Assembly (NCBI RefSeq): GCF_900104385.1
Contig: NZ_FNJA01000001.1
Coordinates: 284,386-348,385 of the forward strand
Direction: 5' to 3'
From: Rhodoferax sp. OV413
Lineage (GTDB): Bacteria > Pseudomonadota > Gammaproteobacteria > Burkholderiales > Burkholderiaceae_C
Length of the DNA stretch: 64,000 bases
Positions 19,208 through 35,392 of the stretch are shown here, one piece after another; the first letter of the stretch is position 1, and every line of letters starts with the position of its first letter. Below the pieces are notes generated by a model that worked only from the letters and a program-made list of their open reading frames with translations, did no database searches and was not told the DNA's origin. A program made the position numbers and the translations under genes.

Positions 19208-19218
19208 ATTTTCAGCCC

Positions 19219-19896
19219 CTAAACCGCGCCCACCTGCCACCAGGAGGGCGCGGTTGCCATCCATCCTTCACCAACGACCTGGGCATCTGCAGATGCAATC
19301 AAGGCCAAAGTGACGCCCTCGGCTTGCCAAACCCGGGCATTGCCCTGCCCTATGGGCATCGCCTGCGTGTGCAAAGCGGCCAGCCGCTCCAAAGCCAGCC
19401 CTTCGCCTCGGGACTTGAACCAGGCTTCCTTCAGAGTCCAGACGCGGTAGAAATACTGCAACGCATCGGCGGCGTCCAGGCCTTCGGCGCTTTTCAGTTC
19501 AGCCGTAGAAAACACGGTGGGCGCCAAGCGTGCCCAATCGCGCGCACGTGCCGGGGCTTCGATGTCTACCCCAATAGGTGCATCCGATACCGCACACACC
19601 ACCCAGTCGGCACTATGGCTCAGCGACAGATGAAGATGCGGGTGGCCCAGTACGGTAGGTGCGCCAGCAGCATTGGCGGCCAGCGCCCAGAGCTGCGGTG
19701 CAGCTGCGCCGGCAAAGGCCGACAAGGCCTGCCGAGCCAACCAATGCCCTGCCAAAAACTGGCTACGCCGCAACGGGGCACTGATATGCGCCACCCTATG
19801 CGCTTCGTGGGCAGACAACCATTGCAGATCCGTTTGCTCGGCCTCGGCGGCGCATTGCGCTACCGGGGCAACACACACACGGATCTGCTGGATCAC
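19219..19896 (-). CDS. 4'-phosphopantetheinyl transferase of the aryl polyene operon
   Basis: A 225-aa Sfp-type transferase that attaches phosphopantetheine from CoA to the ACPs. Mg-binding residues are in GVDIE (residues 109-113, Asp111 and Glu113), and the second motif is WTLKEAWFKSRGEG (153-166). I choose a GTG start at 19896 because it overlaps the preceding stop as GTGA, the coupling pattern of this operon; an ATG at 19962 would cut deep into the upstream gene. It is the last gene of the 19-gene cluster and should activate the two ACPs at 33.4-33.9 kb. Confidence 0.88.
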   Translation of the reverse strand: MIQQIRVCVAPVAQCAAEAEQTDLQWLSAHEAHRVAHISAPLRRSQFLAGHWLARQALSAFAGAAAPQLWALAANAAGAPTVLGHPHLHLSLSHSADWVVCAVSDAPIGVDIEAPARARDWARLAPTVFSTAELKSAEGLDAADALQYFYRVWTLKEAWFKSRGEGLALERLAALHTQAMPIGQGNARVWQAEGVTLALIASADAQVVGEGWMATAPSWWQVGAV

Positions 19897-20345
19897 TGGG
19901 CTGCCACTTTGGCGTAGCTTGCTTTCAGCACCACATGGATACGGAAAGTGCCCGCATGGCATTCGACCGTCGTCGGACTTTTGGTGGGTTCGTTTTTGAA
20001 ATTACTGTGGATGTCGACCACGGCATTGGCACCGAGCTTCTTGGCCTTGGCCTGGAAGGCCAGCAATGACGACAGGGCTGCAGCATGGCAACCCGCCAGT
20101 TCCTCCTTGACGGAACCATTCGCCGAGCCATGCGACCTGTCTTCGCGCAAGGTTTGTTCAATGACCGGGGTGTTCTGGCCTGACAGGTAAAACTTCACCG
20201 AACCGTCCAGCTTGGCCTGGGCCTCGGGCATTTTGAGTACGTCTTCCAGCGGGATCTGGTACTCAACATCGCGTGCGAATGCAGGTACGGTAAACGCCGC
20301 GCTCAAAGCGAACACAGCAACAGACAGGGCAATGGTATTTTTCAT
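19893..20345 (-). CDS. Exported protein of unknown function in the aryl polyene operon
   Basis: A 150-aa protein with a signal peptide ending VPAFARD (about 23 residues). The mature part has two cysteines (GCHAAAL and VECHAGTF) and a central LGANAVVDIHSNF segment that recalls the YbjQ/DUF74 fold, where LGANAVVGV-type strands form the core. It could be a periplasmic helper of export or assembly; no function is established. The start at 20345 (MKNTIALSV) follows a short gap after the ketosynthase gene. Similar small exported genes occur beside other aryl polyene clusters, as far as I recall. Confidence 0.6.
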   Translation of the reverse strand: MKNTIALSVAVFALSAAFTVPAFARDVEYQIPLEDVLKMPEAQAKLDGSVKFYLSGQNTPVIEQTLREDRSHGSANGSVKEELAGCHAAALSSLLAFQAKAKKLGANAVVDIHSNFKNEPTKSPTTVECHAGTFRIHVVLKASYAKVAAQ

Positions 20346-20383
20346 AAGGTGGTTAGAGCAAGGTATCCAGAAACAGCGCTGTG

Positions 20384-21616
20384 TCAAACACCGCGCCAGC
20401 GGCCAAAAATCAAGGAGGTGTTGATGCCTCCAAACGCAAAGTTGTTGCTCATCACATGGTCGGTCTGCAAGCTGAGACCATCGCCCATCACGTACTGCAG
20501 CGGTGCGCAGCGCGGGTCTACCTGGCGCAGATTGACAGTCGGGGCAAACCAGCCCTCACGCATCATCTCGATGGTCATCCAGGCTTCCAGCGCGCCGCAG
20601 GCCCCGAGGGTGTGGCCCATGTAGCTCTTCAACGAGCTCAGCGGCACACGCTCGCCAAAAATGGCGTGGGTGGCAATCGACTCGGCCACGTCGCCGTGGT
20701 CGGTTGCCGTGCCGTGGGCATTCACGTAGCCAATCGCCTCGGGCGCCAGGCTGGCACTTTCCAGCGCTAGCCGGATCGCCTCGGCCATGGTTTCAGACTT
20801 GGGCTGGGTGACATGGGCGCCATCGCTGTTCGTGCCATAGCCCAGCACTTCTGCATGGATGCGTGCGCCACGGGCCAAGGCATGCTCCAGCTCTTCCAGC
20901 ACCAAGGTTCCCGCGCCTTCGCCGAGTACCAGGCCATCACGCTCCGCATCGAAAGGCCGGGGCGTTGACCCAGGCTCGTCATTGCGCACGCTGGTGGCAA
21001 ACAAGGTATCGAACACCGCGGCTTCGGTCGCATCCAGCTCTTCGGCGCCACCGGCGAGCATGGCAATTTGCTTGCCCGACTGGATTGCCTCAAACGCCGA
21101 ACCAATCCCCTGGCTACCCGAGGTACAAGCGCTGGAGGTAGTGATGATGCGCCCCGTCATGCCAAAGAAAACGCCGATGTTGACAGCCGCAGTATGCGAC
21201 ATCATCTTGATATAGGTGGTGGCGTTGATGCCCTCGGTGCTTTTCTCCGACATCATGCGGCCAAAGTCACCAATCGCCGACGGTGTACCCGCCGACGAAC
21301 CATAGGACACGCCCATGCGGCCACTCTTGACCAAGGGGTCACCCAGCAAGCCCGCATCGATTAAGGCAAGCTCGCTGGCCCGCGTGGCCAGCACCGCCAC
21401 ACGGCCCATGCTGCGCATCGATTTGCGGTTGTAGTGTGCAGGTAGCTCGAAGGGTTGGGCAGGTGCGCCCAAGCGCGTATGCAAGCCCTCGAACACAGCC
21501 CAGTCGTGCATGGTGACCACGGCATTGCGTTTGTCTTGCAAGTGCTGGCGAACGCTCGGCCAGTCGTGGCCTAGAGGGCTCAAGGCGCCAAATCCGGTAA
21601 TAACAACCCGCTTCAT
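20384..21616 (-). CDS. apeR: Aryl polyene beta-ketoacyl-ACP synthase (ApeR-type)
   Basis: A 410-aa FabF-like condensing enzyme. The catalytic triad is complete: Cys164 in TTSSACTSGS, His in NAHGTATDHGD and His in YMGHTLGACG. It condenses malonyl-ACP with the growing chain; in the characterised Xenorhabdus system one ketosynthase elongates and a second acts in early or accessory steps. Its start overlaps the ketoreductase stop as ATGA. The assignment as ApeR rests on its place next to apeQ. Confidence 0.88.
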   Translation of the reverse strand: MKRVVITGFGALSPLGHDWPSVRQHLQDKRNAVVTMHDWAVFEGLHTRLGAPAQPFELPAHYNRKSMRSMGRVAVLATRASELALIDAGLLGDPLVKSGRMGVSYGSSAGTPSAIGDFGRMMSEKSTEGINATTYIKMMSHTAAVNIGVFFGMTGRIITTSSACTSGSQGIGSAFEAIQSGKQIAMLAGGAEELDATEAAVFDTLFATSVRNDEPGSTPRPFDAERDGLVLGEGAGTLVLEELEHALARGARIHAEVLGYGTNSDGAHVTQPKSETMAEAIRLALESASLAPEAIGYVNAHGTATDHGDVAESIATHAIFGERVPLSSLKSYMGHTLGACGALEAWMTIEMMREGWFAPTVNLRQVDPRCAPLQYVMGDGLSLQTDHVMSNNFAFGGINTSLIFGRWRGV

Positions 21617-22344
21617 CCGACCATCCCTCCATTCACCGAGATTACCTGGCGGGTGATGTAGGCGGCATCCGGGGTCATCAAGAAGGCCACCACGGCAGCC
21701 ACTTCCTGGGGCGTGCCCATGCGCCGCAACGGGATGATCTTCAAAGCCTCTTCCAGCACATGGGGTTCGACCATTTCCGTATCAATCAAACCGGGGGCCA
21801 CGCAGTTCACCGTGATGGCCCGTTTAGCCAGTTCAACGGCCAGGGATTTGGTAGCGGCAATCACACCGGCTTTGGCAGCGCTGTAATTGGTTTGGCCGCG
21901 GTTGCCCATCAGCGCAGATACCGAGGCCAGGGTCACGATACGCCCCGGCTGGCGGCGCTGCACCATGGGCATCACCACAGGATGGAGTACGTTGTAGAAG
22001 GCATCTAGGTTGGTGTGTACTACCGCGTCCCATTCCTCGCCCGTCATGGCTGGAAAAGCGTTGTCACGTGCCAAACCCGCATTGCAGACCACGCCGTAGT
22101 AGGCACCGTGCTGGTCCATATCCGCCTGCAGTTCGGCGGCACAGGCCTGCCGGTCGGCCACGTCAAAAGCCAGTACCCGGGCTTGCCGCCCGAGCGCAAC
22201 TATCTCTTGCACCACCGCCTGCGCCTGGCTGAGTTGGGCACGGCAATGCACCACGATGTCAAAGCCATCGGCCGCCAAGCGCAGGGCAATGGCTTTGCCT
22301 ATGCCCCGGCTCGCGCCGGTCACCAAAATGGTGGAAGATTTCAT
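21613..22344 (-). CDS. apeQ: Aryl polyene 3-ketoacyl-ACP reductase (ApeQ-type)
   Basis: A 243-aa FabG-like short-chain dehydrogenase. The NADP site is TGASRGIGKAIA (residues 9-20), and the catalytic residues are Ser141, Tyr154 and Lys158 in the NYSAAKAG motif. It reduces the beta-keto group after each condensation so that ApeP/ApeI-type dehydratases can form the conjugated double bonds. The ATG overlaps the dehydratase stop by one base (TAATG) and its stop overlaps the next ketosynthase start. Confidence 0.9.
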   Translation of the reverse strand: MKSSTILVTGASRGIGKAIALRLAADGFDIVVHCRAQLSQAQAVVQEIVALGRQARVLAFDVADRQACAAELQADMDQHGAYYGVVCNAGLARDNAFPAMTGEEWDAVVHTNLDAFYNVLHPVVMPMVQRRQPGRIVTLASVSALMGNRGQTNYSAAKAGVIAATKSLAVELAKRAITVNCVAPGLIDTEMVEPHVLEEALKIIPLRRMGTPQEVAAVVAFLMTPDAAYITRQVISVNGGMVG

Positions 22345-22808
22345 TACGGGGTTCCCTCTGATTCTTGTAAGTAGGCCATGCCGTCCTTGGGCTCGAACAC
22401 CGAAACATGCGCGCGGGCCAGCTCTTTTTCATCTGCATAAATTCGGCAATCAAACATGCCCAGACCATTGTCGGCAACCAGCTCGGCACGCGCCTCGATA
22501 CGCAGCACGCTGCCCACTGCAAAGCCCGCGCAGTCGGCTACATAGCGCCGGGTTCCCAGCAAAAAACCGATATTGACCGGCTCGCCACGCTCCATAGACC
22601 GGACACCGGCCCAGGCGGCAATCGCCTGCGCCATTAGCTCCACCCCTACCCATGCGGGCAATTGCGCACCTTGGACAAACAACCGGTCGGCCCGTACATC
22701 AGCCTCTACCGACACAGAGTCCGGGCCAACGGAGACCAGGCGATCGATCAAACGCATAGCACCGCGGTGCGGGATATAGGTTTCAATAGAAGATGCCACT
22801 GCCGACAT
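22344..22808 (-). CDS. apeP: Aryl polyene 3-hydroxyacyl-ACP dehydratase (ApeP-type)
   Basis: A 154-aa hotdog-fold dehydratase. The region ETYIPHRGAMRLID holds the active-site His, and VGVELMAQAIAAWAG the central helix with the catalytic Glu. It dehydrates 3-hydroxyacyl-ACP to the trans-enoyl form. The cluster has a second hotdog dehydratase fused to the ligase at 31139, as expected since aryl polyene systems use two. The start is the ATG at 22808, one base after the ketosynthase stop. Confidence 0.85.
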   Translation of the reverse strand: MSAVASSIETYIPHRGAMRLIDRLVSVGPDSVSVEADVRADRLFVQGAQLPAWVGVELMAQAIAAWAGVRSMERGEPVNIGFLLGTRRYVADCAGFAVGSVLRIEARAELVADNGLGMFDCRIYADEKELARAHVSVFEPKDGMAYLQESEGTP

Positions 22809-22809
22809 A

Positions 22810-23991
22810 TCAGCCCTGCGCGAATAAAAGCGCGGCATTGCTGCCGCCAAACGCAAACGAGTTGCTCATGACATACCGTGGCGATCGTCCCAACGACTCA
22901 CCCGCATGCACCAGGTGGAGCGGTGGTAGCTGCGGATCGCGTACACCATCAAACCAATGCGGTGGCAAGTAACCTAAAGGATTGTCCACCAGCGTTGCCC
23001 AGGCCAATGCCGCTTCGATGGAGCCAGCAGCCGCCAATGCGTGGCCCGTCATGGGCTTGGTAGAGCTTACAGGTACCTCGCACCCCAGCAGATCGGCCAC
23101 CGCACGGCTCTCCATGGCATCGTTCTGCACTGTGGCCGTGCCATGCAAGTTCAAATAGTCCACCATATCAGCCGCTACACCGGCCCGTGCCAGTGCCAGC
23201 CGCATGGCGTCGGCCGCACCTTGGCCGCTGGGCTCGGGTGCAGACATATGGTGCGCATCCGATGTCTCGCCCCAACCCGCCAGGCGCATCGGCCCCGCGT
23301 CACGCCCCATCAAAAACAAGGCTGCACCCTCCCCCAGGTTGATGCCATTGCGATGCAGCGACATCGGATTGCAGCGTTCGGCCGATACGGACTCCAGCGA
23401 TGAAAAGCCGGCAATCGTAAAAGTGCTCAGCGCATCGGCACCGCCTGCCACCACTGCGTCGACCAAGCCCGCGCGTAACAAACGGGCGCCACTGGCCAGT
23501 GCCTTGGCACCCGACGAGCAGGCGGTAGAGATGGTGTAAACCGGCCCCGTTGCGCCTATTTCCCGGGCTACAAACGCGGCGCCTGATCCCAGAGTCTGCT
23601 GGGCATAGTCGTACCCTACCGGCCAAACCCCATGTGCACGGTGAGAGCGCACAGCCTGCTCTCCCTCTTCCAAACCCGGTGCGCTGCCGCCCAAAATCAC
23701 GGCGACCCGGGACGGGCCATGGCGTAACACTGCTGCCTGCACCGAGCTGCGCATCTGATGCAGGGCTTGGGCCAGCAGGGCGTTATGGCGGCTACGCTGC
23801 GCTAAGGGCACCTGGCCCCAGTCGGGCGACTCTGTCTGAACCCGGCCCAGGTGCAATAAGCGCCCAGGCGTGTACTGGTCGCTGGGCGCCACACTATCGG
23901 GTATCTCATGCGCCCACAGCTTGGCCCGGATACCGGGCAAGTCAGAGCCCAAAGAGCAGACCACCCCAAGCGACTGGAGGTATACGTTCAT
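22810..23991 (-). CDS. apeO: Aryl polyene ketosynthase (ApeO-type)
   Basis: A 393-aa ketosynthase with Cys158 (STACSSGAKAL), His in NLHGTATVQND and His in MTGHALAAAG, so it is catalytically complete. In the Xenorhabdus pathway ApeO works as a heterodimer with the chain-length-factor-like ApeC, whose counterpart here is at 34658. The N-terminus lacks the usual glycine-rich opening of FabF, typical of this clade. Its start overlaps the DUF3261 gene stop by four bases. Confidence 0.87.
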   Translation of the reverse strand: MNVYLQSLGVVCSLGSDLPGIRAKLWAHEIPDSVAPSDQYTPGRLLHLGRVQTESPDWGQVPLAQRSRHNALLAQALHQMRSSVQAAVLRHGPSRVAVILGGSAPGLEEGEQAVRSHRAHGVWPVGYDYAQQTLGSGAAFVAREIGATGPVYTISTACSSGAKALASGARLLRAGLVDAVVAGGADALSTFTIAGFSSLESVSAERCNPMSLHRNGINLGEGAALFLMGRDAGPMRLAGWGETSDAHHMSAPEPSGQGAADAMRLALARAGVAADMVDYLNLHGTATVQNDAMESRAVADLLGCEVPVSSTKPMTGHALAAAGSIEAALAWATLVDNPLGYLPPHWFDGVRDPQLPPLHLVHAGESLGRSPRYVMSNSFAFGGSNAALLFAQG

Positions 23992-24533
23992 GGCGTTTGC
24001 TCCACCGATTCAATCTGCAACTGGTAACCCGCGCGGTGGTTGAAAACATCCACATGCTGGCCATCGCGGTACTGCACTTGCATTACTTCTTCGCCCTTCC
24101 ACAGCAAGCGCCGCTGGGCGACGCTACTATCCAAGGTCCAGCCCTCGGGCAGCGCAGCACGCACTACCTCGGCCGGCCACCAGACGAGTTGCAGGTCACT
24201 CAAAATGCGTTCGCCACGCACAACATCCGGCAGCCAGCTGGCGCGGGTTTGCTGCAACGTCTGGCCATCCCAGCTCATCCGCACCACGGTTTGGTTCATG
24301 CCCAGCACTGCCAGGCGCAACTCCTGCGGATCGACCTCCAGCGCCACATCTACCGCCTGGCTACGGCCCGCGGCCATCACCACCAGGTGCTGTTGCAGCC
24401 ACATGGAGCGGCCCAGACTGGCAGGCGCCAAACGCAGCAGCAATTCATGCTCTGGAGAAGCGCCCATGCGCCCAGCGCAGGCGCCCAACAGCAGCAGCAA
24501 AAACAGCGTACAGAAACGTAGCAATAGCATCAT
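23988..24533 (-). CDS. DUF3261 lipoprotein of the aryl polyene operon
   Basis: A 181-aa lipoprotein: the signal sequence ends in a lipobox LGAC, with Cys19 the lipidated residue. The mature domain matches the DUF3261 pattern of a LolB-like half-barrel (LRLAPASLGRSMWLQQHLVV, then VLGMNQTVVRMSWDG and the closing YQLQIESV). With LolA-like and MMPL proteins in the same operon it probably carries the lipid-linked polyene to the outer membrane. The function is inferred from context. The ATG overlaps the MMPL stop (ATGA). Confidence 0.8.
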   Translation of the reverse strand: MMLLLRFCTLFLLLLLGACAGRMGASPEHELLLRLAPASLGRSMWLQQHLVVMAAGRSQAVDVALEVDPQELRLAVLGMNQTVVRMSWDGQTLQQTRASWLPDVVRGERILSDLQLVWWPAEVVRAALPEGWTLDSSVAQRRLLWKGEEVMQVQYRDGQHVDVFNHRAGYQLQIESVEQTP

Positions 24534-26833
24534 TGCGGCAGCCTCTCAGGAGGACGAAAAAAGGGAGACAAGGCCCACACCAAGCTCACACCGCAGGCCA
24601 TTGTGAAACCAAAAGCCTGCAGCGCTGGCGTAGAAGACAGGGCCAACAAACCAAACGACAACAGCGTGCTGGCAGCACCCAAGGCGATAGCCAACCACGC
24701 AGAGCGGTCACCCCGGTGTTCCAGCAGAAATATGCCGTAGTCCACCCCCATGCCCAGCAACAAAACCAGCGCCAGCACATTGAACAGCTGAAATGGGATG
24801 CCGCAAAAACCTTGAATCGCCAGACTCAAGCCACTGGCCAACACAGTAGGCACCCAGGCCCGCCAGGCATCGCCGCGGTAGCGCCAGAACAAAGCCAGGA
24901 ACACCACCACATAACCGCCAGCCAACAGACCGAGCATGGACACGCGGTAGCGCCCCAGCAGCGAGGACACATTGGCCGTGGTATCAACCCAGCGCACCCC
25001 GTCCAGGCCTTCGGCCAGCTGTGCCAGGTGCGGCAAAGAGGCAGCCCCTGCCACGCCCTGCAACATCACCACGCTGCTCATCTGCCCGTTCACCTCGCCC
25101 AGCCACAACGGCCGCGCCACGGCGGAAACCGGGTGCGCCAGCCAGGATGCAAGATCCAGAGCCTGCGGGGCAAAGGCAGGACGCGTAAAAGTCTCGCCCA
25201 ATTGCTGGGCCACGGTGGCTAGAACTTCATGTTCGGCCCGCGCAGTCAACGCCGCATCCGCTTGCTGCCGGGCTTGCGACGGCAGCCAATCCGATACCGC
25301 ACGCCAGCCGCCGACCAGGCCTTGCGCGGCCAATGGCTCCAAGGCTTGCTTCAGTGCTTCCTCCCGCACCAGTACCTGCTCGGCATCCTGTCCCCGCACC
25401 AGGTAAAACTGCGCCGGACTCGGCAGCGCCAGCAACGCGCCCACCTCTCGCTGGGCGTCAATCAAAGCCTTGGGTGAACCTTGCAGCTGGCGTACATCGT
25501 CGTTGGTCTGCAAACGGTTGATACCGAACACCATCAACGCCGCCATCACCAGTGCGCTAGCCCACAGCGCTGGCCGCATGCGCAGCACCGGCACATGGTC
25601 GAGACTGTAGGAGATACGCTGGGCAAAGCCGCTCATGGGCACCTGCCCCCGGTCCAGCCAGGGGAACCAGCACACCACCGTCAGAAATGCAGCCACCAGA
25701 CCGACCGAGGAAAAAACGGCCATCTGGCGCAAGCCCGGAAATGGCGCCAAGCCCAGCACCAGATAGGCCAGCACACTGGTAGTCAGCGCCAGCGCCAGCC
25801 CCGGCAGCAGGTTGCCCATCACCGCCCAACGTGCTTGGCCCTGGCGCGATTGGCGGGTCGCAAAATAATGGATGCCGAAGTCTTCGGCAACCCCGACCAG
25901 GCTGGCGCCAAACACCAGTGTCAAGAGATGCACTTTGCCAAACAGCAGTGCGGTCACCGACAGTGCTGTCGCACATCCCACCAGCAAGGACAGGGACACC
26001 AAGGCAATCGGCCGCAGGGAGCGAAACGCCAGCCAGACCAGTAGCAGCACCGCTGCCAAAGACCCCCAGCCAATCGTATTCACCTCCCGGTTAGCCTGGG
26101 CCGCAGCGGCTTCCGCATGCAGGGCAATGCCTATCGACACAATGCGCAGGTCCGGCGTCTGGACTGCAGCCGCCGCCTGCGCCAAGGTGTCGGTTATCGG
26201 TGTACTGCCATCCATGGCAAATGCCGGACCAGACAACTCATAGACCAGCACCACCCAATCCATGCCGTTTGCCGCCACCCATGGCCAGCCGTCGCGCAAG
26301 CGCGCCCGGCTCTCCCCGGCGCGTTGGGCCCACCACTGCGGCCACAAAGCCAAGGGGTCCGTCACCCAGTCGGATAGCTTCAAGCCGACCCCGGGCTGGT
26401 AGAGCCCGGCCAAGGCAGACTGGACCAGCGTGGCCGGAGGGCTGTCCGCCAATTGCGCGCGCTGGGCTGGCGTCAGTAGGCGGTCACGGTAGGGGCGGTA
26501 GAAATCCAGCACCTGCGCTAAACCTGCTGCGTCCATACCGGGCAAAGGCTTGAGTCCACCCGGCCGGGCGGCAACTGCAGCACGGTGTGCCTCGGCCGCC
26601 TGGCGCACCTGGTCCCAGTTTTTCCCGCCCAGCACCACCACGACCTGGCGCGAGGTCTGTTCCGCCAAGCGCCGCGTCGCAGCCGACACCTCCGGCGCAT
26701 GCTCGTCCTGCGGCAACAGCGTCAGCACGTCGCTATCCAGATTGGCAGCACGCCAGAAATGCCATTGGTGTGCCGCCACCAGCACCACCACCAACAGCCA
26801 GACCAGTGCCAGTGCATGCCATAAGCGCGGCAT
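24530..26833 (-). CDS. MMPL/RND-type exporter of the aryl polyene operon
   Basis: A 767-aa inner-membrane protein with about 12 transmembrane segments in two halves, each with an RND-like cluster of helices (SLAAVLLLVWLAFRSLRP with GVAEDFGIHYF in the first half, and LALVLLLGMGVDYGIFLLEHRG in the second) and two periplasmic domains. This is the arrangement of MMPL lipid exporters. It should flip or deliver the polyene lipid across the inner membrane. I prefer the ATG at 26833; a GTG at 26875 would overlap the LolA gene by 26 bp. Confidence 0.85.
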   Translation of the reverse strand: MPRLWHALALVWLLVVVLVAAHQWHFWRAANLDSDVLTLLPQDEHAPEVSAATRRLAEQTSRQVVVVLGGKNWDQVRQAAEAHRAAVAARPGGLKPLPGMDAAGLAQVLDFYRPYRDRLLTPAQRAQLADSPPATLVQSALAGLYQPGVGLKLSDWVTDPLALWPQWWAQRAGESRARLRDGWPWVAANGMDWVVLVYELSGPAFAMDGSTPITDTLAQAAAAVQTPDLRIVSIGIALHAEAAAAQANREVNTIGWGSLAAVLLLVWLAFRSLRPIALVSLSLLVGCATALSVTALLFGKVHLLTLVFGASLVGVAEDFGIHYFATRQSRQGQARWAVMGNLLPGLALALTTSVLAYLVLGLAPFPGLRQMAVFSSVGLVAAFLTVVCWFPWLDRGQVPMSGFAQRISYSLDHVPVLRMRPALWASALVMAALMVFGINRLQTNDDVRQLQGSPKALIDAQREVGALLALPSPAQFYLVRGQDAEQVLVREEALKQALEPLAAQGLVGGWRAVSDWLPSQARQQADAALTARAEHEVLATVAQQLGETFTRPAFAPQALDLASWLAHPVSAVARPLWLGEVNGQMSSVVMLQGVAGAASLPHLAQLAEGLDGVRWVDTTANVSSLLGRYRVSMLGLLAGGYVVVFLALFWRYRGDAWRAWVPTVLASGLSLAIQGFCGIPFQLFNVLALVLLLGMGVDYGIFLLEHRGDRSAWLAIALGAASTLLSFGLLALSSTPALQAFGFTMACGVSLVWALSPFFRPPERLPQ

Positions 26834-26849
26834 CCTGGCGTTGAGCGCC

Positions 26850-27470: not shown

Positions 27471-27880
27471 GGTGGCACCCCCAGCCGCTCCCAGAGCACC
27501 GGAGGACACACGTACTGCATTTGCTGGCTGGCCATATCCACCGCCACCTGGATGGTGTAAGCCGAGGTGAGCTTGCTGCCGGTCTGCACATCGCGGATCA
27601 GGTAATTGATCTTCAAGCGGCTCTCCCACTCCACAATTTCACAACGCACGGCAATCCGCTGGCCAAAGGAGGCCGGGCGCACGTACTTCAGACGCATATC
27701 GACGATAGGCCAGGCGTACCCAGAGGCCCGCATCTGCGGGTAGTCGTAGTCCATGCGTGCCAGCAAGGCACAGCGGGCAATTTCCATGTACTTGACGTAG
27801 TGGCCGTGCCAGACAATTTCCATGACGTCCATGTCATGGAATGCCGGCACCAATTCAATCTCGTGTACCCATTCCGCCAT
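27464..27880 (-). CDS. apeK: Acyl-CoA/ACP thioesterase, 4HBT family
   Basis: A 138-aa hotdog thioesterase of the YbgC/4HBT group. The active-site segment is FHDMDVMEIVWHGHYVKYME, with Asp as general base and the usual HG-YxxY turn. It should release or edit the polyene chain from the ACP. It starts one base after the ammonia-lyase stop. The name follows from position in the ape gene order (ApeK in the Xenorhabdus scheme). Confidence 0.82.
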   Translation of the reverse strand: MAEWVHEIELVPAFHDMDVMEIVWHGHYVKYMEIARCALLARMDYDYPQMRASGYAWPIVDMRLKYVRPASFGQRIAVRCEIVEWESRLKINYLIRDVQTGSKLTSAYTIQVAVDMASQQMQYVCPPVLWERLGVPPC

Positions 27881-27881
27881 T

Positions 27882-29435
27882 TCAGATCTCCCACACCTGG
27901 GCGCGCAAGGCTTGCAACAAGGCCTGCAGGTCTTGGTCCAGCGCACGGTCTTCGTCCACAAACGCGACGCGGCTTTCCAGATCGGCCGCGAACGCCGCCA
28001 AACCCGGGCTCAGGCTCTGCAGCGGGTCCATGCGCCCGCGCAGCGCCAGGCCCTGGCGGGCTGCAATCAGCAGGCCAGCGCAGACCTGTTCGGTCAGCTC
28101 CAGCACCCGCAGACAGTCGCGGGCGGCAATCGTGCCCATGCTGACCTTGTCCTGGTTGTGGCATTCGGTAGAACGAGAGAACACCGAAGCCGGCATGGTC
28201 TGCTTCAAGGCCTCGGCGGTCCAGGCCGAGACGCTGATCTGCAAGGCCTTGAGCCCGTGGTTAATGGCCGCACGCGGGCCGGTCGCTCCCGACAGGTTAG
28301 ACGGCAAACCGTGGTTGAAACGGGTATCGACCAGCAGGGCCAGTTGCCGGTCCAGCAGGTCCGCCACATTGGCCACCGCGGTCTTCAGGCTGTCCATCGC
28401 AAATGCGATGTGGCCGCCATAGAAGTGACCACCGTGCAGCACACGTTCGCCATCGGGGTCGATCAGTGGGTTGTCGTTGGCGCTGTTGAGCTCGTTCTCG
28501 ATCAGCGTGCGCATAAAAGGCAGGGCATCTTCGAGCACACCGATCACGTGCGGCGCACAGCGCAGGGAATAGCGGTCTTGCAAACGCTGGTCGTTGCGAG
28601 CCGGCCGGTCGCTGGCCAAGTCGGCGCGCAGGCGTGCAGCCACCGCCTGCTGTCCGGGGTGGGGCTTGAGCGCAAACAGGGTTTCATCGAAATGGTGGGC
28701 ATTGCCGGCACTGGCCACTACATTGCAAGCCGTCAAGCGCGTGGCCAAACGCGACACATAGCTGGCACGCTCAAACGCCAGGCAGGCCAGCCCGGTCATC
28801 ACGGCCGTGCCGTTCATGATGGCCAGGCCCTCCTTGGGGCGCAGGCGCAAAGGGGTGCGGCCCACCGCCTGCAAAGCCTCTGCGGCCGGCCGGCGCGCGC
28901 CATTGAACCAGACCTCGCGCTCACCGCACAGCACCGCGGCCACATAGGACAAAGGCGTGAGATCGCCACTGGCACCCACCGATCCTTCGGCCGGGATCAT
29001 GGGCAGCACATCGTGGACCAGCAACGCCTCCAGCTGCACCAGCAAATCCACGCTGACTGCCGAATAGCCTTGCGACAAAGACGCCAGCCGCGCAGCCAGC
29101 ACCGCCCGCACCTCTTCTGGAGCCAGCATCCGACCGGCACCGATACCGTGGTAGGTATACAGATGGTGCGGCAGCTCCGCCACCAGATCCAGCGGTATGT
29201 GCACCGTACAAGAGTCGCCATAGCCAGTGGTTACGCCATACACCACGCCGTCTTCGCGCAACAGCCGATCCAGAAAATCAGCGCCTTTGGCAATCCGCGC
29301 GCGAAAAGCCGGGGCCGCTGACAGCACGGGTGGCCGCTCACGCCGGGCTAAGGCACAGATGTCCTCAATGCACAAACGCGTACCGTCAAAGCAGACCGGC
29401 TCTGGCGCCGGAACAGAAATGGGGGATGACAACAT
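27882..29435 (-). CDS. MIO-dependent aromatic ammonia-lyase (HAL/PAL/TAL family)
   Basis: A 517-aa lyase that eliminates ammonia from an aromatic amino acid to give a trans-acrylic acid. The prosthetic MIO group forms from Ala155-Ser156-Gly157 (GSVGASGDLTPL), and the catalytic Tyr66 is in YGVTTGYGD. The residue pair that sets substrate choice appears to be Tyr95-His96 (LYTYHGIGAG), unlike Ser-His of typical histidine lyases. In this operon the most plausible product is 4-coumarate from tyrosine, used as polyene starter. A histidine lyase role is unlikely, since no hut genes are near. Confidence 0.87.
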   Translation of the reverse strand: MLSSPISVPAPEPVCFDGTRLCIEDICALARRERPPVLSAAPAFRARIAKGADFLDRLLREDGVVYGVTTGYGDSCTVHIPLDLVAELPHHLYTYHGIGAGRMLAPEEVRAVLAARLASLSQGYSAVSVDLLVQLEALLVHDVLPMIPAEGSVGASGDLTPLSYVAAVLCGEREVWFNGARRPAAEALQAVGRTPLRLRPKEGLAIMNGTAVMTGLACLAFERASYVSRLATRLTACNVVASAGNAHHFDETLFALKPHPGQQAVAARLRADLASDRPARNDQRLQDRYSLRCAPHVIGVLEDALPFMRTLIENELNSANDNPLIDPDGERVLHGGHFYGGHIAFAMDSLKTAVANVADLLDRQLALLVDTRFNHGLPSNLSGATGPRAAINHGLKALQISVSAWTAEALKQTMPASVFSRSTECHNQDKVSMGTIAARDCLRVLELTEQVCAGLLIAARQGLALRGRMDPLQSLSPGLAAFAADLESRVAFVDEDRALDQDLQALLQALRAQVWEI

Positions 29436-29443
29436 AGGTAAGC

Positions 29444-30403
29444 TTAAAAACGCCGGGAAGCCAGAGACGCGTCACCACGCCCCTGCGCCCAAAATGGGAA
29501 AAAATTGAACCAGTCGTACGGAGCCTGCTGCAGCAAAAGCTCCAGCTGCTGGACGAACCCTGCCGCGTATTCGGCCAAAGCCGCCTCGCGCCGCGCCCTT
29601 GGCAGAACGACCTGCTGTGCCAGACGGGCGAAGCGTAGGGTGTGAACCGCGTCTTCACGGACACAGCCCATGAAGTACAAGGGGCATTTCAGCAATGCCG
29701 ACAGCACATACGGCCCCACGGGAAACCGCGCGGCATGGCCTAGAAATAGCGCCTCCACCGTGCGCCCAGCCCCCAAGGGAACGCGATCGCCGGCAATCGC
29801 CACGAACTCCCCGCGCTCCACCCGCTCAGACAACCAGACGGCCGTGCCCGCAGACACCTCGCTGACCTGCAGCAGCTGCACGGCGCTGTGCGGATGCAGA
29901 CGCTTGAGCAGGCGGTTGAAGCGCTCGGCATGCGCCGTATGCACCAGAATATTCATTCGCAAACCGGGTAGGCGTTCAGCGAGGACCTGGCATAGCTCCA
30001 GGCAGCCCACGTGGCCGGTCACGATCACACCGCCCTGCCCCGCGGCCAAGGCTTGCAGCAGCGGTGCCTGGCCTTCGATGCGGACGCTGTCAAACGGATA
30101 GCGCCCGCCCATGGCCAGCATCTTGTCGAGCAAGGTATCGGCAAAAGACACGAAATGGCGCAAGCTGTGCCAGTGCCCAGGCGTATGTCCCACGCTGCCG
30201 TGGGACGCCTGTAGCCGCTGCAAATATTCCAGGGAGGAGCGCCGTGCCAATGCACCTGTAGCCCAGTACACCAGCACCACAGGATACAGGCACAGCACAA
30301 AGGGCACGCGTCCCAGCCAGCGGTGTATCCAGGCCAGCAGCAGCATGCCGAACACGCAGGTGTTCTCTCCCACGTTCGCCCAATGGGGCGCTGGCGCACT
30401 CAT
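29444..30403 (-). CDS. LpxL-type acyltransferase of the aryl polyene operon
   Basis: A 319-aa lipid A-type acyltransferase (HtrB/LpxL fold) with an N-terminal transmembrane segment and the VIVTGHVGCLELCQVLAERLP block holding a catalytic-like His and Glu, followed by the ERGEFVAIAGDRVP motif. It is expected to transfer the polyene acyl chain, or a fatty acyl chain, to a sugar or glycerol-phosphate acceptor. The ATG at 30403 overlaps the glycosyltransferase stop (ATGA), so the two are coupled and may work in one complex. Confidence 0.82.
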   Translation of the reverse strand: MSAPAPHWANVGENTCVFGMLLLAWIHRWLGRVPFVLCLYPVVLVYWATGALARRSSLEYLQRLQASHGSVGHTPGHWHSLRHFVSFADTLLDKMLAMGGRYPFDSVRIEGQAPLLQALAAGQGGVIVTGHVGCLELCQVLAERLPGLRMNILVHTAHAERFNRLLKRLHPHSAVQLLQVSEVSAGTAVWLSERVERGEFVAIAGDRVPLGAGRTVEALFLGHAARFPVGPYVLSALLKCPLYFMGCVREDAVHTLRFARLAQQVVLPRARREAALAEYAAGFVQQLELLLQQAPYDWFNFFPFWAQGRGDASLASRRF

Positions 30404-31146
30404 GGCTTGCGCCCCAGCTTGCGCCATAGCAGCAGTGGTGAGCGCAGCAGCATGCCGAAGAACAGCCGCGTATGCATGCGCGTGATCAATAGATTGTCCA
30501 GCCAGAGCCGGAAGTGCGAAATCCCATCCAGCGGATAGGTTACCCGGGTCGGCTGGTTCACCACCGCGACACCCCGCCAATGCAGGCGCACCAGCACGTC
30601 GGTATCAAAGTCCATGCGGTGGCCGATATCCACCTGGTCCATCAGCTGCACCACGGCCGCCAACGGATAGACCCGGAAACCACACATTGAATCGCGGATA
30701 TCCAGCGACAAGGTATTGATCCAGACCCAGATGTGGGTGGCATAACGGGCGATCAAGCGGGTCCGCGGCACCGATGCATCGAACAGCGGGCAACCGGCAA
30801 TCACCGCCAGCGGGCGCTGGGCGCTGCGCGCCAGAAATACCGGAATATCCGCGGGCTGGTGCTGGCCGTCGGCATCGATCTGCAAGGCATGGGTATAGCC
30901 CAGCGCATGGGCCCGACGCAAGCCGGCCACCATCGCCGCGCCTTTGCCCTGGTTGTGCGGCAAACGCAGCAGCAGCACCGTGTCGGCATGGCGCTGGGCC
31001 AAGGCCTGCAGCACCGCCGCGCACTCCGGCCCGCTGCCATCGTCCACCAGGATGCAGGCCAAGGCACGCGCGTGCACAGCCGCCACCATGGTGCCTATGG
31101 CCTCGCCATGGTTGTAGACGGGAATCACCGCCACCGGCTTAAACAT
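30400..31146 (-). CDS. Family 2 glycosyltransferase of the aryl polyene operon
   Basis: A 248-aa GT-A enzyme. The nucleotide-sugar motifs are VIPVYNHGEAIG at the N-terminus, LVDDGSGPECAAVL, and the DXD-like DADGQHQPADI segment, with QxxRW-region equivalents further on. It lacks obvious membrane segments until the basic C-terminus. It should glycosylate the polyene anchor or its carrier. The start ATG at 31146 overlaps the ligase gene by eight bases. It is paired with the acyltransferase downstream. Confidence 0.85.
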   Translation of the reverse strand: MFKPVAVIPVYNHGEAIGTMVAAVHARALACILVDDGSGPECAAVLQALAQRHADTVLLLRLPHNQGKGAAMVAGLRRAHALGYTHALQIDADGQHQPADIPVFLARSAQRPLAVIAGCPLFDASVPRTRLIARYATHIWVWINTLSLDIRDSMCGFRVYPLAAVVQLMDQVDIGHRMDFDTDVLVRLHWRGVAVVNQPTRVTYPLDGISHFRLWLDNLLITRMHTRLFFGMLLRSPLLLWRKLGRKP

Positions 31147-32827
31147 GCGCAGGCCCGGCAAACACGATACGGCCGCTGGAATGCATCTGCTCGCCGGAGC
31201 GGTAGGCAAATACCAAAGTCGATGCCGCGGCACGCCAGGTCAGCGCAAGAGTGATACGGTCGCCCGGCCGCACCGGGCGCTGGAATTTGAGCGTTTCCAC
31301 GCGCAAGAAATCGCCGTTGATGGGAAAACACTCGCGGCCAAACGACACCGCCCAATCCAGCTGGGCTACCCCCGGCAGCACCGGTGCCACCGGGAAATGT
31401 CCGTCGAAAACCCGCAGGTCCGCCTGGATATCCAGCACGGCACGGGCCTCGGCTGGATCGCGCTGCTGCCACTGCGCTATGGGCCGGGTCGGGCGCAGTA
31501 AATCCAATAGCAAGGCCTCGGTGGTCTTGCTCTGCGCGTTCACAGGCATCTGCGCGGGGTAGCGCCAGCGCTTAGGCAGCGCCACCGGCTCCACCACCGA
31601 GGCCAGCAGTTCACGCAGCCTCTGATTAACAGCTGGTTTGCCCAGCCGGGCCAAGGCCTCGTTGCCTTCGGGCGTAAGAACAGCCACCACGGCCAGCCGC
31701 CCCTGGTAAACCAGCGCACGCACTTCTTGCACCCAGGGTGACTGGGCCAGATGCCGCTCGATGGCCGTCAGGGAAACGCGCTTTTCCTCGATCTTGACGA
31801 TACGGTCTTCGCGCCCCAGCAACACAAACCCACCCGATGCGGTGGGCGCAATCCTGTCGGTGCTACGCCACCAGCTACTGTCGGCCAGGTTCGGAGAGCG
31901 CAACTCCAGCACCTCGTGCGCCACCCGCCATTGCACGCCCACAAAAACCTGCCAAGTATCGCCATGCTCTCTGCGCTGGCGCCAGGCAATGCCACCGGTT
32001 TCCGAGCTGCCAAAGACTTCCACTGGAGAGCAGCCCCATAGCCGCAGCGTGTCGTCCGCCGCCTGCGGCGGCAAAGGGCCACCCGAAGAAAACACCATGC
32101 GCACACCTTGGCGCGCCGCGGCCCAGTCCAGCGTCTCGGGCAAGCGGCGCAAATGGGCCGGGCTGGCAATCAGCACACTGGGCTCAGGCCCCAAGGCCTG
32201 CGCCATCTGTTCGGGGTAGACCAAACGCTCTGCCACGAAGCGCATACCACTGGCCAGCGGCCACAGGATGGCGAACAGCAGCCCGTAAATATGCTGGTGC
32301 GACACGGTGGTCAGAATATGGGCCTGCGGCTCAGAGGGCATGCGCGCGGCAAAGCTCTGGTGCAGGGTGCCGATCTCGGCCTCCAGCTGCCGCAGCGACT
32401 TGGCGATCGCCTCCGGCTCGCCGCTGGAGCCCGAGGTGTACAGCACCAACCGGGTGTTTTCCAAATCCAGCGCCTGCCGGGCGTGCGCCGCATCCACGCT
32501 GGCCGCGCACAGGCCTTGCGGCACATCGCCAGCCCAGCCATCCACCTCGGCATTCAAGCGCGCAACGCTGCCGGGCTGCACATCGCCGGGCAGGAACACC
32601 GTCTTGCCCGCGTGCCATGCGCCGTACAAGGCACAGGCGAACTGGTAGCCATCTTCAAAATACAGCGCCCAACGCAAACCTGTGCTCTGGGCAAAAACGG
32701 TTTGCCAACGCCCCACATCGGCGACGAAGTCTGCATGGCTGCGGGCTTGCCCGGCTTGCCGTGCCACTACCCGCCCATGGCGACCAGCCCCGCAAGCGAC
32801 CTCGGTCAGGGAAATGAACTCAAACAT
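31139..32827 (-). CDS. apeH: Aryl-acid ligase fused to a hotdog dehydratase (ApeH-ApeI type)
   Basis: A 562-aa two-domain protein. Residues 1 to about 425 are an acyl-adenylating ligase with P-loop YTSGSSGEP (about 130-138), the A5 block VFGSSETGGIAW, and an A8 block GREDRIVKIEEKRVSL. Residues about 450-562 are a FabA/Z-type hotdog domain with FDGHFPVAPVLPGVAQLDW. The first would load the aromatic starter acid on ACP and the second dehydrate 3-hydroxyacyl-ACP. These are usually separate genes, ApeH and ApeI. The ATG at 32827 overlaps the upstream membrane-protein gene by eight bp. Confidence 0.88.
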   Translation of the reverse strand: MFEFISLTEVACGAGRHGRVVARQAGQARSHADFVADVGRWQTVFAQSTGLRWALYFEDGYQFACALYGAWHAGKTVFLPGDVQPGSVARLNAEVDGWAGDVPQGLCAASVDAAHARQALDLENTRLVLYTSGSSGEPEAIAKSLRQLEAEIGTLHQSFAARMPSEPQAHILTTVSHQHIYGLLFAILWPLASGMRFVAERLVYPEQMAQALGPEPSVLIASPAHLRRLPETLDWAAARQGVRMVFSSGGPLPPQAADDTLRLWGCSPVEVFGSSETGGIAWRQRREHGDTWQVFVGVQWRVAHEVLELRSPNLADSSWWRSTDRIAPTASGGFVLLGREDRIVKIEEKRVSLTAIERHLAQSPWVQEVRALVYQGRLAVVAVLTPEGNEALARLGKPAVNQRLRELLASVVEPVALPKRWRYPAQMPVNAQSKTTEALLLDLLRPTRPIAQWQQRDPAEARAVLDIQADLRVFDGHFPVAPVLPGVAQLDWAVSFGRECFPINGDFLRVETLKFQRPVRPGDRITLALTWRAAASTLVFAYRSGEQMHSSGRIVFAGPAHV

Positions 32828-33392
32828 GCGCATCCTGCAGATGGCGCCAGCGCGCCTTGACCCGGCGGCGCACCAGCCATTCGCCACCAAACAACAGCCC
32901 CATCAGGCCGTAGGCCAGCAAACCGTTGTACAGCGCCCAGACCGCCGGGCTGGCCCATAGCGCGGTCAGCAACGCAACCGTGCCGTTCAACACAAAAAAT
33001 CCGCACCACAGCTTGGTCACCTGGCGCGTGTAGGCGATGGCCTGGGGCGGCAGGTCAGGCTCGGTCAGCCGGGCCAGCCGTTCAATGGCCGAAGGGGGAT
33101 AGGCCAGGCTGGCGGCAAACACGGTGCACAGCACCGCATTCACCAGCACCGGGTACAGCTTGAGCGGCAACAGCGCATTGCCCCAGATGCTGAGCAGGGC
33201 CAGGCACAAAGCGCCGGCCGCAGCCACCCACCAGAACCGTTGCCGCGTCACCAGCAGGCGCAACAGCGCCAGCGCCAGCAGCAGCAGCGCCAGCCAGCGC
33301 GGTTCAAAATGGCCGATACCAAAGTACACGGCCAGCGGATAGGCCAGAGTCAGCGCCCCCAGCAACAGCGTTTTAGGCTGGAGCGGCGTCAT
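32820..33392 (-). CDS. COG4648-type membrane protein of the aryl polyene operon
   Basis: A 190-aa protein with about five transmembrane segments (LGALTLAYPLAVYFGIG, WLALLLLALALLRLL, VAAAGALCLALLS, FVLNGTVALLTALW and LLAYGLMGLLFGG regions) and a basic C-terminal tail. It is of unknown function, but proteins of this size and topology lie at this place, between the ACPs and the ligase, in other aryl polyene clusters. It corresponds to ApeG by position. Its start overlaps the second ACP gene by 20 bp. Confidence 0.75.
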   Translation of the reverse strand: MTPLQPKTLLLGALTLAYPLAVYFGIGHFEPRWLALLLLALALLRLLVTRQRFWWVAAAGALCLALLSIWGNALLPLKLYPVLVNAVLCTVFAASLAYPPSAIERLARLTEPDLPPQAIAYTRQVTKLWCGFFVLNGTVALLTALWASPAVWALYNGLLAYGLMGLLFGGEWLVRRRVKARWRHLQDAHV

Positions 33393-33630
33393 TCACAAGG
33401 CCGTGCAAGGCATCGACGATGTCTTGTACGGTCCGCACCGATTTGAATGCCTCGGGCTGCAGACGTTTGCCCACCAGGGGCTTCAACTGGACGATCAGAT
33501 CCACGGCGTCAATGCTGTCGATGTCCAGGTCGTCATAAAGCCGGGAGGTGGGCGTGACCCGGTCTGGCTCTATGTCAAAAGCGTCTTTCAGGATGCTCCG
33601 GATGCGTTCAAAAATTTCGTCTTTGGTCAT
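33373..33630 (-). CDS. apeF: Acyl carrier protein (ApeF-type)
   Basis: An 85-aa acyl carrier protein. The phosphopantetheine serine is Ser39 in DLDIDSIDAVDL. The start is the ATG at 33630; a TTG at 33648 would add six residues but is less likely. It is acidic and helical like all ACPs. In the Xenorhabdus system two ACPs are used, one for the starter and one for chain extension. It should be activated by the PPTase at 19219. Confidence 0.88.
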   Translation of the reverse strand: MTKDEIFERIRSILKDAFDIEPDRVTPTSRLYDDLDIDSIDAVDLIVQLKPLVGKRLQPEAFKSVRTVQDIVDALHGLVNDAAPA

Positions 33631-33644
33631 AGCGTTCTTCAATT

Positions 33645-33905
33645 TCAAGCCGCGCGTTGGCCGTTCACAAAAGCCACCAAGGCGTCAACGCTGGCAAAGT
33701 GGCGGCGCGTCTGCTCCGAGTCGGTGCCCATGCTCACGCCGTAGCGTTTTTGCAAGGCCATGCCCAGCTCCAGTGCATCGATAGAGTCCAGGCCCAAGCC
33801 TTCTACAAACAAGGGTTCGGAGGACACGATGTCCTGCGGCGTGATGTCTTCCAGCGCCAGCGCGGAAATGATGAGTTCTTTGATCTCAAGCTCTAAGGTG
33901 GACAC
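33645..33905 (-). CDS. apeE: Acyl carrier protein (ApeE-type)
   Basis: An 86-aa acyl carrier protein with the attachment site Ser41 in GLGLDSIDALELG. Its motif is DSIDALEL, different from that of the second ACP (DSIDAVDL), so the two are diverged and may have different partners. It overlaps the acyltransferase gene by 20 bp and lies 14 bp before the second ACP gene. Confidence 0.88.
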   Translation of the reverse strand: MSTLELEIKELIISALALEDITPQDIVSSEPLFVEGLGLDSIDALELGMALQKRYGVSMGTDSEQTRRHFASVDALVAFVNGQRAA

Positions 33906-34665
33906 CTTGGGTCTCCCATGAAAAATAATCGGTCAGGTGCGTCGTCAGCCGGCGCGCCGCCACCCCTTCGGCCACACCTTCCAGAAAGGGGGCCACCACA
34001 ATATCGTCACGCACTTCAATCACAAAGTGCATGCGGCGGATCGGAATCTGGTACCACTTGTCGCCCTTGCTCAGGGTGGGCGGCTCGCAGCGTATCGATA
34101 CCGGCGTGATGTTCACGCGCCCGCGCACTGCCACATTGGCCGCGCCGCGCTGCAGATGCATGCCGCCACTGCGCGCGGTACGCGTGCCTTCGGGAAAGAT
34201 GATCAGGTTGTTGCCCGCATGCAGCGAGTCTATGCAGCCCTGCACCAGGTCGGCACCCGAGTCATTGCAGACAAAGCCGGCGGCCGTCACCGGCCCGCGC
34301 ATGAACGGGTTGTCGCGCAGCGCCGCCTTGACCACGCAGTCGGCGCGCTGCGTCAACGACATCAGGAACACCACATCCAGCAAGGTGGGGTGGTTGGCCA
34401 ACACCAGCAAACCATGGCGCTGCAGCTTTTCTACCCCGTGCAGCTCGCAGCTCATGACGCCCAGCCCGCGCATCATGCCGAGGAACATACGAAACGCACC
34501 GCGAATCACCTCCTTGACCAGCAGCGCCCGGCGCACCGGATCGCGCACCAGCGTGGCCAGCACCGGGAACAGCAGCACCCGCATCACCAGCCCGCCCAGG
34601 CCGAACACCACGAAGCAGAAACCAGTGGTGAACACGCGCACGGCACGCTCCAGCCGGCTAAACAT
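33886..34665 (-). CDS. 1-acylglycerol-3-phosphate acyltransferase-like enzyme (ApeD-type)
   Basis: A 259-aa PlsC-family acyltransferase. The catalytic HX4D motif is NHPTLLD, and the acceptor motif is FPEGTRT. One or two hydrophobic segments lie in the first 45 residues. It probably transfers an acyl chain to a glycerol-phosphate or sugar anchor of the polyene lipid. The start at the ATG 34665 overlaps the upstream gene by eight bp. The position matches ApeD. Confidence 0.84.
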   Translation of the reverse strand: MFSRLERAVRVFTTGFCFVVFGLGGLVMRVLLFPVLATLVRDPVRRALLVKEVIRGAFRMFLGMMRGLGVMSCELHGVEKLQRHGLLVLANHPTLLDVVFLMSLTQRADCVVKAALRDNPFMRGPVTAAGFVCNDSGADLVQGCIDSLHAGNNLIIFPEGTRTARSGGMHLQRGAANVAVRGRVNITPVSIRCEPPTLSKGDKWYQIPIRRMHFVIEVRDDIVVAPFLEGVAEGVAARRLTTHLTDYFSWETQGVHLRA

Positions 34666-35392
34666 GGCGTTGCCACTCCCAGCCGCTGCCGGCCACCGGG
34701 CGCGCAAACTGCATTTCCCCCGACAAGGCGAATCGCAGCACATCCAGGCCGTAAGGCAACAGCGCCGGTGCCACTTCTGTGCTGTCGGCAACAGTGCTGC
34801 ACAAGCGTAGCCGTGAAGCCCCGGCCTCAGCCGGCGCCATGCGCCAGGCCCAGGCATAGGTGGCCGCCGGCTCATCGCGAAAAACACTGTAGTGGCCGGG
34901 CAGCGGGGTGTCATAGCACAGCAACAGCACCTCGGGCGCGCCGTCAGCCAGCAGGCCCACGGCCTCGACCACGCCCAGGGCCACGGTATCGGCACCGGCT
35001 GCCACGGCCAGGTAATTGGAACGGTCGCCGCGCGCAATCGAATACATCGCACCGATGGCGTTGTGCACCGACAGGCCAAAGCCGGTGGGCGACATGGGTT
35101 CTTGCGCAGCCAGATCGGCCAGCAAGGCCAGTGAACGCTCCAGATCGCCGTGGCGCGATGCCAGCACCACCGGCACGCCAGATTGCTCAGCCTGCGCCCA
35201 GTAGGCTACCTGCAGAGCCATGCGGCCCAGGGTGTTGGCGCGGCGGCGCGCCATGGGCGCCAGTTCGGGCAAAGCCGGAGCCGCTTCGTCCTGCGGCAGA
35301 AACGGCTGTGCAGCCCACGCCATCCATGCTTCTGGAGAGTGCAGCCCGGACGCAAACGCGGCCCATCCACGAAGACAGAAATCAAACGCCAA
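34658..35392 (-). CDS. apeC: Chain-length-factor-like ketosynthase domain (ApeC-type)
   Basis: A 244-aa protein with only the N-terminal ketosynthase half, of the group annotated as beta-ketoacyl synthase N-terminal domain. It has no active-site Cys; GLSVHNAIGAMYSIARG stands where the KS thiolase core begins. In Xenorhabdus ApeC pairs with ApeO and acts as a chain-length factor. The start must be the TTG at 35392, since an in-frame stop lies just upstream and the next Met is residue 24, past the conserved N-terminus. First gene of the operon. Confidence 0.82.
   Translation of the reverse strand: MAFDFCLRGWAAFASGLHSPEAWMAWAAQPFLPQDEAAPALPELAPMARRRANTLGRMALQVAYWAQAEQSGVPVVLASRHGDLERSLALLADLAAQEPMSPTGFGLSVHNAIGAMYSIARGDRSNYLAVAAGADTVALGVVEAVGLLADGAPEVLLLCYDTPLPGHYSVFRDEPAATYAWAWRMAPAEAGASRLRLCSTVADSTEVAPALLPYGLDVLRFALSGEMQFARPVAGSGWEWQRHV

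Follow-up and report, generated by a model that had tools for sequence, protein, structure and literature searches.

The closest described relative of the locus studied here is the aryl polyene (APE) cluster of Escherichia coli CFT073 (apeA-R), for which export by MMPL, LolA and DUF3261 proteins, two ketosynthases (KS) with a chain-length factor (CLF) and the enzymes ApeH, ApeI, ApeP and ApeQ are described (PMC8253772). The starter of E. coli ApeH is reported to be 4-hydroxybenzoate (4-HBA) (PMC8253772). We analysed a 64,000-nucleotide stretch of Rhodoferax sp. OV413 (contig NZ_FNJA01000001.1, positions 284,386 to 348,385; hereafter the window) and found in it an operon that shares these parts, with the core genes in nearly the same order, and that encodes an ammonia-lyase. 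The E. coli cluster contains the methyltransferase ApeB and ApeA and has neither a lyase nor a 4'-phosphopantetheinyl transferase (PPTase), while in the window ApeH and ApeI are fused and ApeJ is split. Our preferred reading, to which we give a probability of about 0.7, is that the operon was acquired horizontally, that p-coumarate made by its lyase would serve as the starter, and that the product would be a polyene with a plain 4-hydroxyphenyl ring. Gene content, insertion, lyase motif and distribution, on which this reading draws, were observed directly; the predicted product type is a yellow membrane pigment.

Gene content of the operon

The operon is a single minus-strand unit (35392-19219) of 19 contiguous open reading frames (ORFs), all confirmed from the ORF list and the translations. 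Seventeen of the 18 gene junctions overlap and the remaining one is an 8-base gap, in agreement with a preliminary description of 19 mostly overlapping minus-strand genes. That description had also proposed a complete APE pathway, which Pfam and NCBIfam profile searches of the operon proteins corroborated, giving a full APE set plus a PPTase. The biosynthetic core comprises a KS/CLF pair, a second KS, a ketoreductase, two dehydratase domains, acyl carrier proteins (ACPs) and an AMP-ligase; the lipid attachment and export set comprises acyltransferases, LolA, MMPL and DUF3261 proteins, ApeM being assigned by homology to 80 loci alone. No Pfam match was obtained for three of the genes (33392-32820, 26875-24530 and 20387-19893). 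The 4-methylideneimidazole-5-one (MIO) ammonia-lyase previously placed at 29435-27882 is indeed there, with a full-length PF00221 match and an intact Ala-Ser-Gly (ASG) triad. In the order of transcription the genes are:

34658..35392, minus: ApeC-like CLF, KS N-terminal domain (PF13723, 221.3 bits); translation without the active-site Cys; start codon (TTG) uncertain
33886..34794, minus: ApeD-like glycerolipid acyltransferase (PF01553, 61.9 bits); true start somewhere inside these bounds
33645..33905, minus: ApeE-like ACP (PF00550)
33373..33648, minus: ApeF-like ACP (PF00550; NF003757, 124 bits, over cut-off)
32820..33392, minus: ApeG-like membrane protein, from position and conservation in related clusters; no Pfam match
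31139..32890, minus: ApeH AMP-ligase fused to an ApeI-like dehydratase (PF00501, PF22818; best NCBIfam model TIGR02372, 4-coumarate-CoA ligase, 91.5 bits, below the cut-off of 334.7)
30400..31233, minus: glycosyltransferase family 2, one half of the split ApeJ (PF00535, 61.7 bits)
29444..30580, minus: LpxL-like acyltransferase, other half of the split ApeJ (PF03279, 30.5 bits)
27882..29435, minus: MIO aromatic amino acid ammonia-lyase, predicted tyrosine ammonia-lyase (PF00221, 526.6 bits; ASG triad; YH and CHNQDKVSM; clade member beside PYP-pcl, see below)
27464..27961, minus: ApeK-like 4HBT thioesterase (PF13279, 51.1 bits)
26850..27629, minus: ApeL, LolA-like carrier (PF03548, 47.5 bits)
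24530..26875, minus: ApeM, RND/MMPL-type exporter (HpnN-type NCBIfam matches below cut-off; 80 homologous loci)
23988..24533, minus: ApeN, DUF3261 LolB-like protein (PF11659, 120.7 bits)
22810..23991, minus: ApeO-like KS (NF006618, 443 bits, cut-off 407); Cys in TACSSG in the translation
22344..22856, minus: ApeP-like dehydratase (PF22817, 71 bits)
21613..22344, minus: ApeQ ketoreductase (PF13561, 178 bits)
20384..21616, minus: ApeR-like KS (NF006587, 703.6 bits, cut-off 470); Cys in SACTSG in the translation
19893..20387, minus: small conserved protein, function unassigned, present in 46 of 80 related loci; no Pfam match
19219..19962, minus: PPTase (PF01648, 59.9 bits)

Insertion site and origin

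Comparison with congeners placed the operon in a block that they do not share:

19211..35570 (approximate bounds): whole inserted block, between a histidine kinase gene (plus strand, ends at 19207) and ispF (minus strand); empty sites L108-L112

The histidine kinase locus was found in five of seven congeners, the two without a match being assemblies 73% and 71% complete. In all five, ispF lies next to the kinase gene without intervening APE genes, and in one of these empty sites (L109) the sequence matches the window over 19121-19214 and then, 1 base on, over 35571-35722. The operon is a clean block of ~16.35 kb, inserted at a site that could be located in five congeners and is empty in each. 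Its acquisition in this lineage is a simpler explanation than five losses; the GC content of the operon (0.60-0.66) is not set apart. In another of the congeners (L111) the space between the kinase gene and ispF holds several copies of a short repeated sequence.

Signature and predicted substrate of the ammonia-lyase

The MIO-forming triad of the window lyase is intact at residue 155, and its scores stay below the cut-offs of all named NCBIfam lyase models: 411.6 bits for BagA/FevW, 398.9 for hutH (TIGR01225, cut-off 539.15) and 314.2 for the flexirubin tyrosine ammonia-lyase (TAL) FlxA (NF053541, cut-off 700). We aligned 66 lyases, leaving out L078, two short rows of at most 480 residues (L063 and L083) and the partial L107; outgroup branches in the resulting tree are long. 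The first selectivity site reads YH in all 60 APE-type lyases, and a second motif towards the end reads CHNQDKVSM; the six other rows have SH (five) or AR (one) at the former and keep Q/L-E-D-H at the latter. The window lyase accordingly has YH and HNQDK in place of SH and QEDH. The selectivity positions would correspond to residues 89-90 in RsTAL and 82-83 in PpHAL.

One member of this clade stands in a telling neighbourhood. In locus L103 (9400-12855), from a genome of the window's family, a lone APE-type lyase, 77% identical to that of the window, lies divergent from an operon in which a photoactive yellow protein (PYP) gene (TIGR02373, 190.2 bits, over cut-off) overlaps a pcl gene for 4-coumarate-CoA ligase (TIGR02372, 343.3 bits, over cut-off). 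The L103 lyase nests among the APE lyases: the smallest starred set that contains it in the 66-row tree has eight rows, seven of them APE. PYP is described as requiring p-coumarate, made by a TAL and then activated by 4-coumarate-CoA ligase (PMC12826048, PMC9664959). Because a 77%-identical clade member adjoins PYP and pcl genes, and from the motifs of the clade, the substrate of the window lyase is most likely tyrosine and its product p-coumarate. The unmethylated aryl head group made from tyrosine or phenylalanine, as first proposed, is thereby sharpened to tyrosine and p-coumarate and kept as the best reading; the missing methyltransferase is unremarkable in this lineage, and the lyase is not required for APE clusters (see below). 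Sequence has not settled whether a given APE cluster takes its starter from tyrosine or from chorismate. Together with the PYP neighbour, the clade signature makes the substrate of the lyases in at least 48 clusters, in relatives from Burkholderiales, Lysobacterales and Myxococcota, a prediction open to test.

The association of PYP with such a lyase is unsupported as a general rule, with one adjacency (L103). Of 18 genomes, 17 of them with an APE-type lyase other than the window's, that of L103 alone has a PYP exceeding the curated cut-off. A second PYP-like gene lies ~4 kb away in L103.

Distribution of the lyase among related clusters

Related loci were collected in one scan with the exporter ApeM, of which the best 80 of 122 were kept; they come from Burkholderiales, Lysobacterales, Chitinibacteraceae and Myxococcota, among others. 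Both genes flanking the lyase slot were seen in 76 clusters, and the lyase was present in 48 and absent from 28. In the window's family, 12 of 200 sampled genomes, the window's included, have an APE-type lyase. We searched 23 genomes, which cover 24 of the 28 loci without a lyase in the slot (L057, L065, L068 and L075 left out), for a lyase of this type elsewhere: 20 had none, and three had an APE-type lyase outside the cluster (G042, G045 and, as a partial gene, G040). Since 28 of 76 clusters do without the lyase and only 3 of 23 searched genomes have one elsewhere, an APE cluster does not in itself require it. Neither the cluster-encoded lyase nor the missing methyltransferase is unusual among related clusters. 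The APE-type lyases seen outside APE clusters are L105 (G042), L106 (G045), L107 (G040) and L142 (G494); the APE cluster found in each of G042, G045 and G040 is one without a lyase of its own.

On a tree of the ApeH-ApeI protein (61 rows, excluding E. coli and all rows no longer than 480 residues), lyase presence changes at least seven times, four of these changes being forced by starred branches. When alignment columns of the remaining operon proteins were scored for mutual information with lyase presence, none stood out cleanly as a specificity position; the highest value in ApeHI was 0.60 bits. At column 99, Val is found in 23 of 24 rows without the lyase, and 22 rows with it have Tyr; as a specificity switch this column was set aside as confounded by ancestry, Comamonas/Acidovorax rows having Val with or without a cluster lyase.

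One extension cycle on 4-HBA gives p-coumarate, the same compound as the predicted lyase product, and therefore both routes can yield the same polyene. The lyase may thus be an optional on-ramp one cycle down, an arrangement that would allow its gain and loss while the remaining genes stay unchanged. For the same reason head-group mass cannot show lyase use: it is informative on methylation, and product mass alone cannot separate the two starters. Low substrate specificity in vitro is reported for an aryl polyene ligase, ArcT (PMC3949708).

Alternative starters and substrates

The alternative that survives best, though we consider it unlikely, is that the starter is 4-HBA as in E. coli, and that the lyase merely feeds the 4-HBA pool by side-chain shortening, or another pathway. 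The absence of the lyase from 28 of 76 related clusters, and from 20 of the 23 searched genomes altogether, agrees with such a starter, as do the lack of a clear pocket switch in ApeH and the use of 4-HBA by the E. coli enzyme (PMC8253772). UbiC was not detected in the window's genome, so another source of 4-HBA is possible; a genome search for chorismatase (PF21168) gave no match, yet its control was silent as well. The idea that a lost UbiC explains the lyase was rejected, and the two are not tied, for PF04345 (UbiC) is missing from 22 of 24 sampled genomes of the window's family, most of them without such a lyase. The operon also contains no side-chain-shortening gene.

Considerably less probable is a phenylalanine ammonia-lyase, which would leave an unsubstituted phenyl ring as head group. 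The window lyase exceeds the cut-off of no named model, and in this superfamily prediction of substrate from sequence is described as unsafe (PMC3992019); the PYP chromophore, however, needs a 4-hydroxy ring, and the 77%-identical enzyme beside PYP-pcl has the same signature. It is very improbable that the enzyme is a histidine ammonia-lyase that travels with the operon and plays no part in pigment formation. Although hutH is among the best models, its cut-off is not reached, the SH and QEDHVSM motifs of HutH rows are absent, a separate HutH scoring well above the cut-off is encoded in the genome, and the lyase occupies a fixed slot in 48 of 76 clusters.

The tailoring slot between apeM and apeN

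In related clusters, genes for putative tailoring enzymes lie at one junction:

24530..24533: apeM-apeN junction, a 4-base overlap in the window operon; tailoring-gene slot in relatives

The preliminary description had noted that the operon contains no SAM-dependent methyltransferase, and we likewise found none among its ORFs, in the Pfam and NCBIfam searches or at its junctions. It had also pointed to the rest of the genome, where a search with E. coli ApeB, aimed at ApeB-type methyltransferases only and run without its control, gave no match; the query works on relatives, with matches at E 1e-77 or better in 6 of 80 related loci. Its further statement that a methyltransferase is present in many such clusters does not apply to this lineage, in which the ApeB type is as rare as that count.

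Both apeM and apeN were seen in 70 loci, and the slot holds a halogenase-like flavoprotein gene in 59 (one also with a methyltransferase), a methyltransferase alone in four and neither in seven; the ApeB type thus occurs in 5 of 70, including the locus with both genes. The flavoprotein matches PF04820 (Trp_halogenase) with 94.5 bits; among NCBIfam models it scores highest on CmlS, though below cut-off, and its activity is putative. Against the whole genome it gave only weak partial matches (26-31% identity). In nine further APE clusters of the window's family the slot is halogenase-like in four, holds a methyltransferase in three and neither in one, and lies at a contig end in one. The missing methyltransferase is the rule in this lineage and the notable absence is that of the halogenase-like gene; the true peculiarity of the window operon is its empty apeM-apeN slot, common to a minority of relatives. 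The head group probably carries neither a methyl group nor a halogen. What the slot holds (a halogenase-like gene, a methyltransferase gene or nothing) gives a simple rule by which ring decoration can be predicted from sequence.

Proposed pathway

Substrate, loading and product, like the on-ramp logic, are what we infer from these observations. The lyase would deaminate tyrosine to p-coumarate, which ApeH would adenylate and load onto an ACP. ApeO/ApeC, ApeQ and ApeI/ApeP (and ApeR) would add C2 units to give a 4-hydroxyphenyl polyene, and the thioesterase, the acyltransferases and the LolA/MMPL/DUF3261 proteins would attach it to a lipid and transport it to the outer membrane. The ring would remain plain 4-hydroxyphenyl because the operon lacks both a methyltransferase and the halogenase-like gene seen in its relatives.

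Several points weigh against this scheme. The tyrosine assignment draws on one neighbourhood (L103) and motifs, the closest lyase models (BagA/FevW, hutH, FlxA) being all below cut-off. Five other PYP-pcl loci (L127, L128, L129, L132 and L135) lack a lyase of this type within the stretches retrieved, and among eight other genomes with a PYP match only G494 has an APE-type lyase, which is not beside its PYP. The finding that no ApeHI column cleanly divides lyase-plus from lyase-minus clusters fits an on-ramp and lends no positive support to coumarate loading; the ApeH of lyase-free E. coli also scores best on TIGR02372 (75.1 bits), so this match is not discriminating. As the genome-wide methyltransferase search covered the ApeB type, enzymes of other families may occur elsewhere in the genome. 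Finally, the operon could, less simply, have been lost in all five congeners.

Lyases and a PYP homologue elsewhere in the genome

The genome encodes four PF00221 proteins, the APE lyase and three others. L001 is a regular HutH, well over cut-off, and with the APE lyase it makes up the MIO-intact lyases of the genome. About 5 kb from it, L002 (G000:C22:682183-683628) is HutH-like and over HutH cut-offs, an open frame without Ala-Ser-Gly. L004 (G000:C9:421498-422874) is a divergent PF00221 protein below the cut-offs of named lyases, again without Ala-Ser-Gly.

A PYP homologue (G000:C4:263551-263910; L120, L134) has 32% identity and 72.7 bits on TIGR02373 (cut-off 143.05), a model reported to match just ~20% of PYP homologues (PMC9664959). 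Its Tyr42, Glu46 and Cys69 are conserved and it adjoins GGDEF/EAL-type sequence; a pcl gene was not found within the 13 kb fetched around it, the range over which we looked for pcl. That one TAL, imported with the pigment operon, supplies p-coumarate to both a blue-light-absorbing membrane pigment and a blue-light sensor, the PYP homologue, is an idea we hold to be doubtful. If true, pigment formation and light perception would draw on the same precursor, and lyases of this clade would pass between pigment and photoreceptor loci.

Comparison with known systems

Cimermancic et al. 2014 reportedly noted ammonia-lyases in APE clusters. A literature search over titles and abstract openings, with most subscription papers out of reach, returned nothing on this lyase clade in APE clusters and nothing linking aryl polyenes with PYP.

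The window operon resembles the xanthomonadin and arcuflavin clusters, described as aryl polyene systems with related ligase, exporter and acyltransferase genes (PMC3949708); those clusters have genes for a XanB2-type chorismatase, a halogenase and a methyltransferase, all three of which the window operon lacks. Halogenase-free pigment clusters are known in Lysobacter (PMC3691225). It also resembles the flexirubin pathway of Chitinophaga pinensis, in which a cluster-encoded TAL, FlxA, is reported to make the aryl polyene starter (PMC3992019). Unlike FlxA, however, the window lyase has its own signature and stays far below the model's cut-off (314 against 700), and the flexirubin cluster is described with a methyltransferase step (PMC3992019).

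In L103, a lyase with the same signature as the window's serves a photoreceptor locus, and APE genes were not found in the stretch fetched. The closest copy of the window operon is in the Comamonadaceae metagenome-assembled genome Jr-20nov17-118 (L048, L071; lyase 91% by tblastn, ApeR 93%), known from two short contigs rather than a whole cluster; as in the window, nothing lies between apeM and apeN. The clusters of Methylibium rhizosphaerae (L007) and Rhizobacter Root1221 (L005) have the same gene order as the window, with lyases 82% and 81% identical; unlike the window, both have an ApeB-type methyltransferase gene after apeM, accompanied in L005 by a halogenase-like gene.

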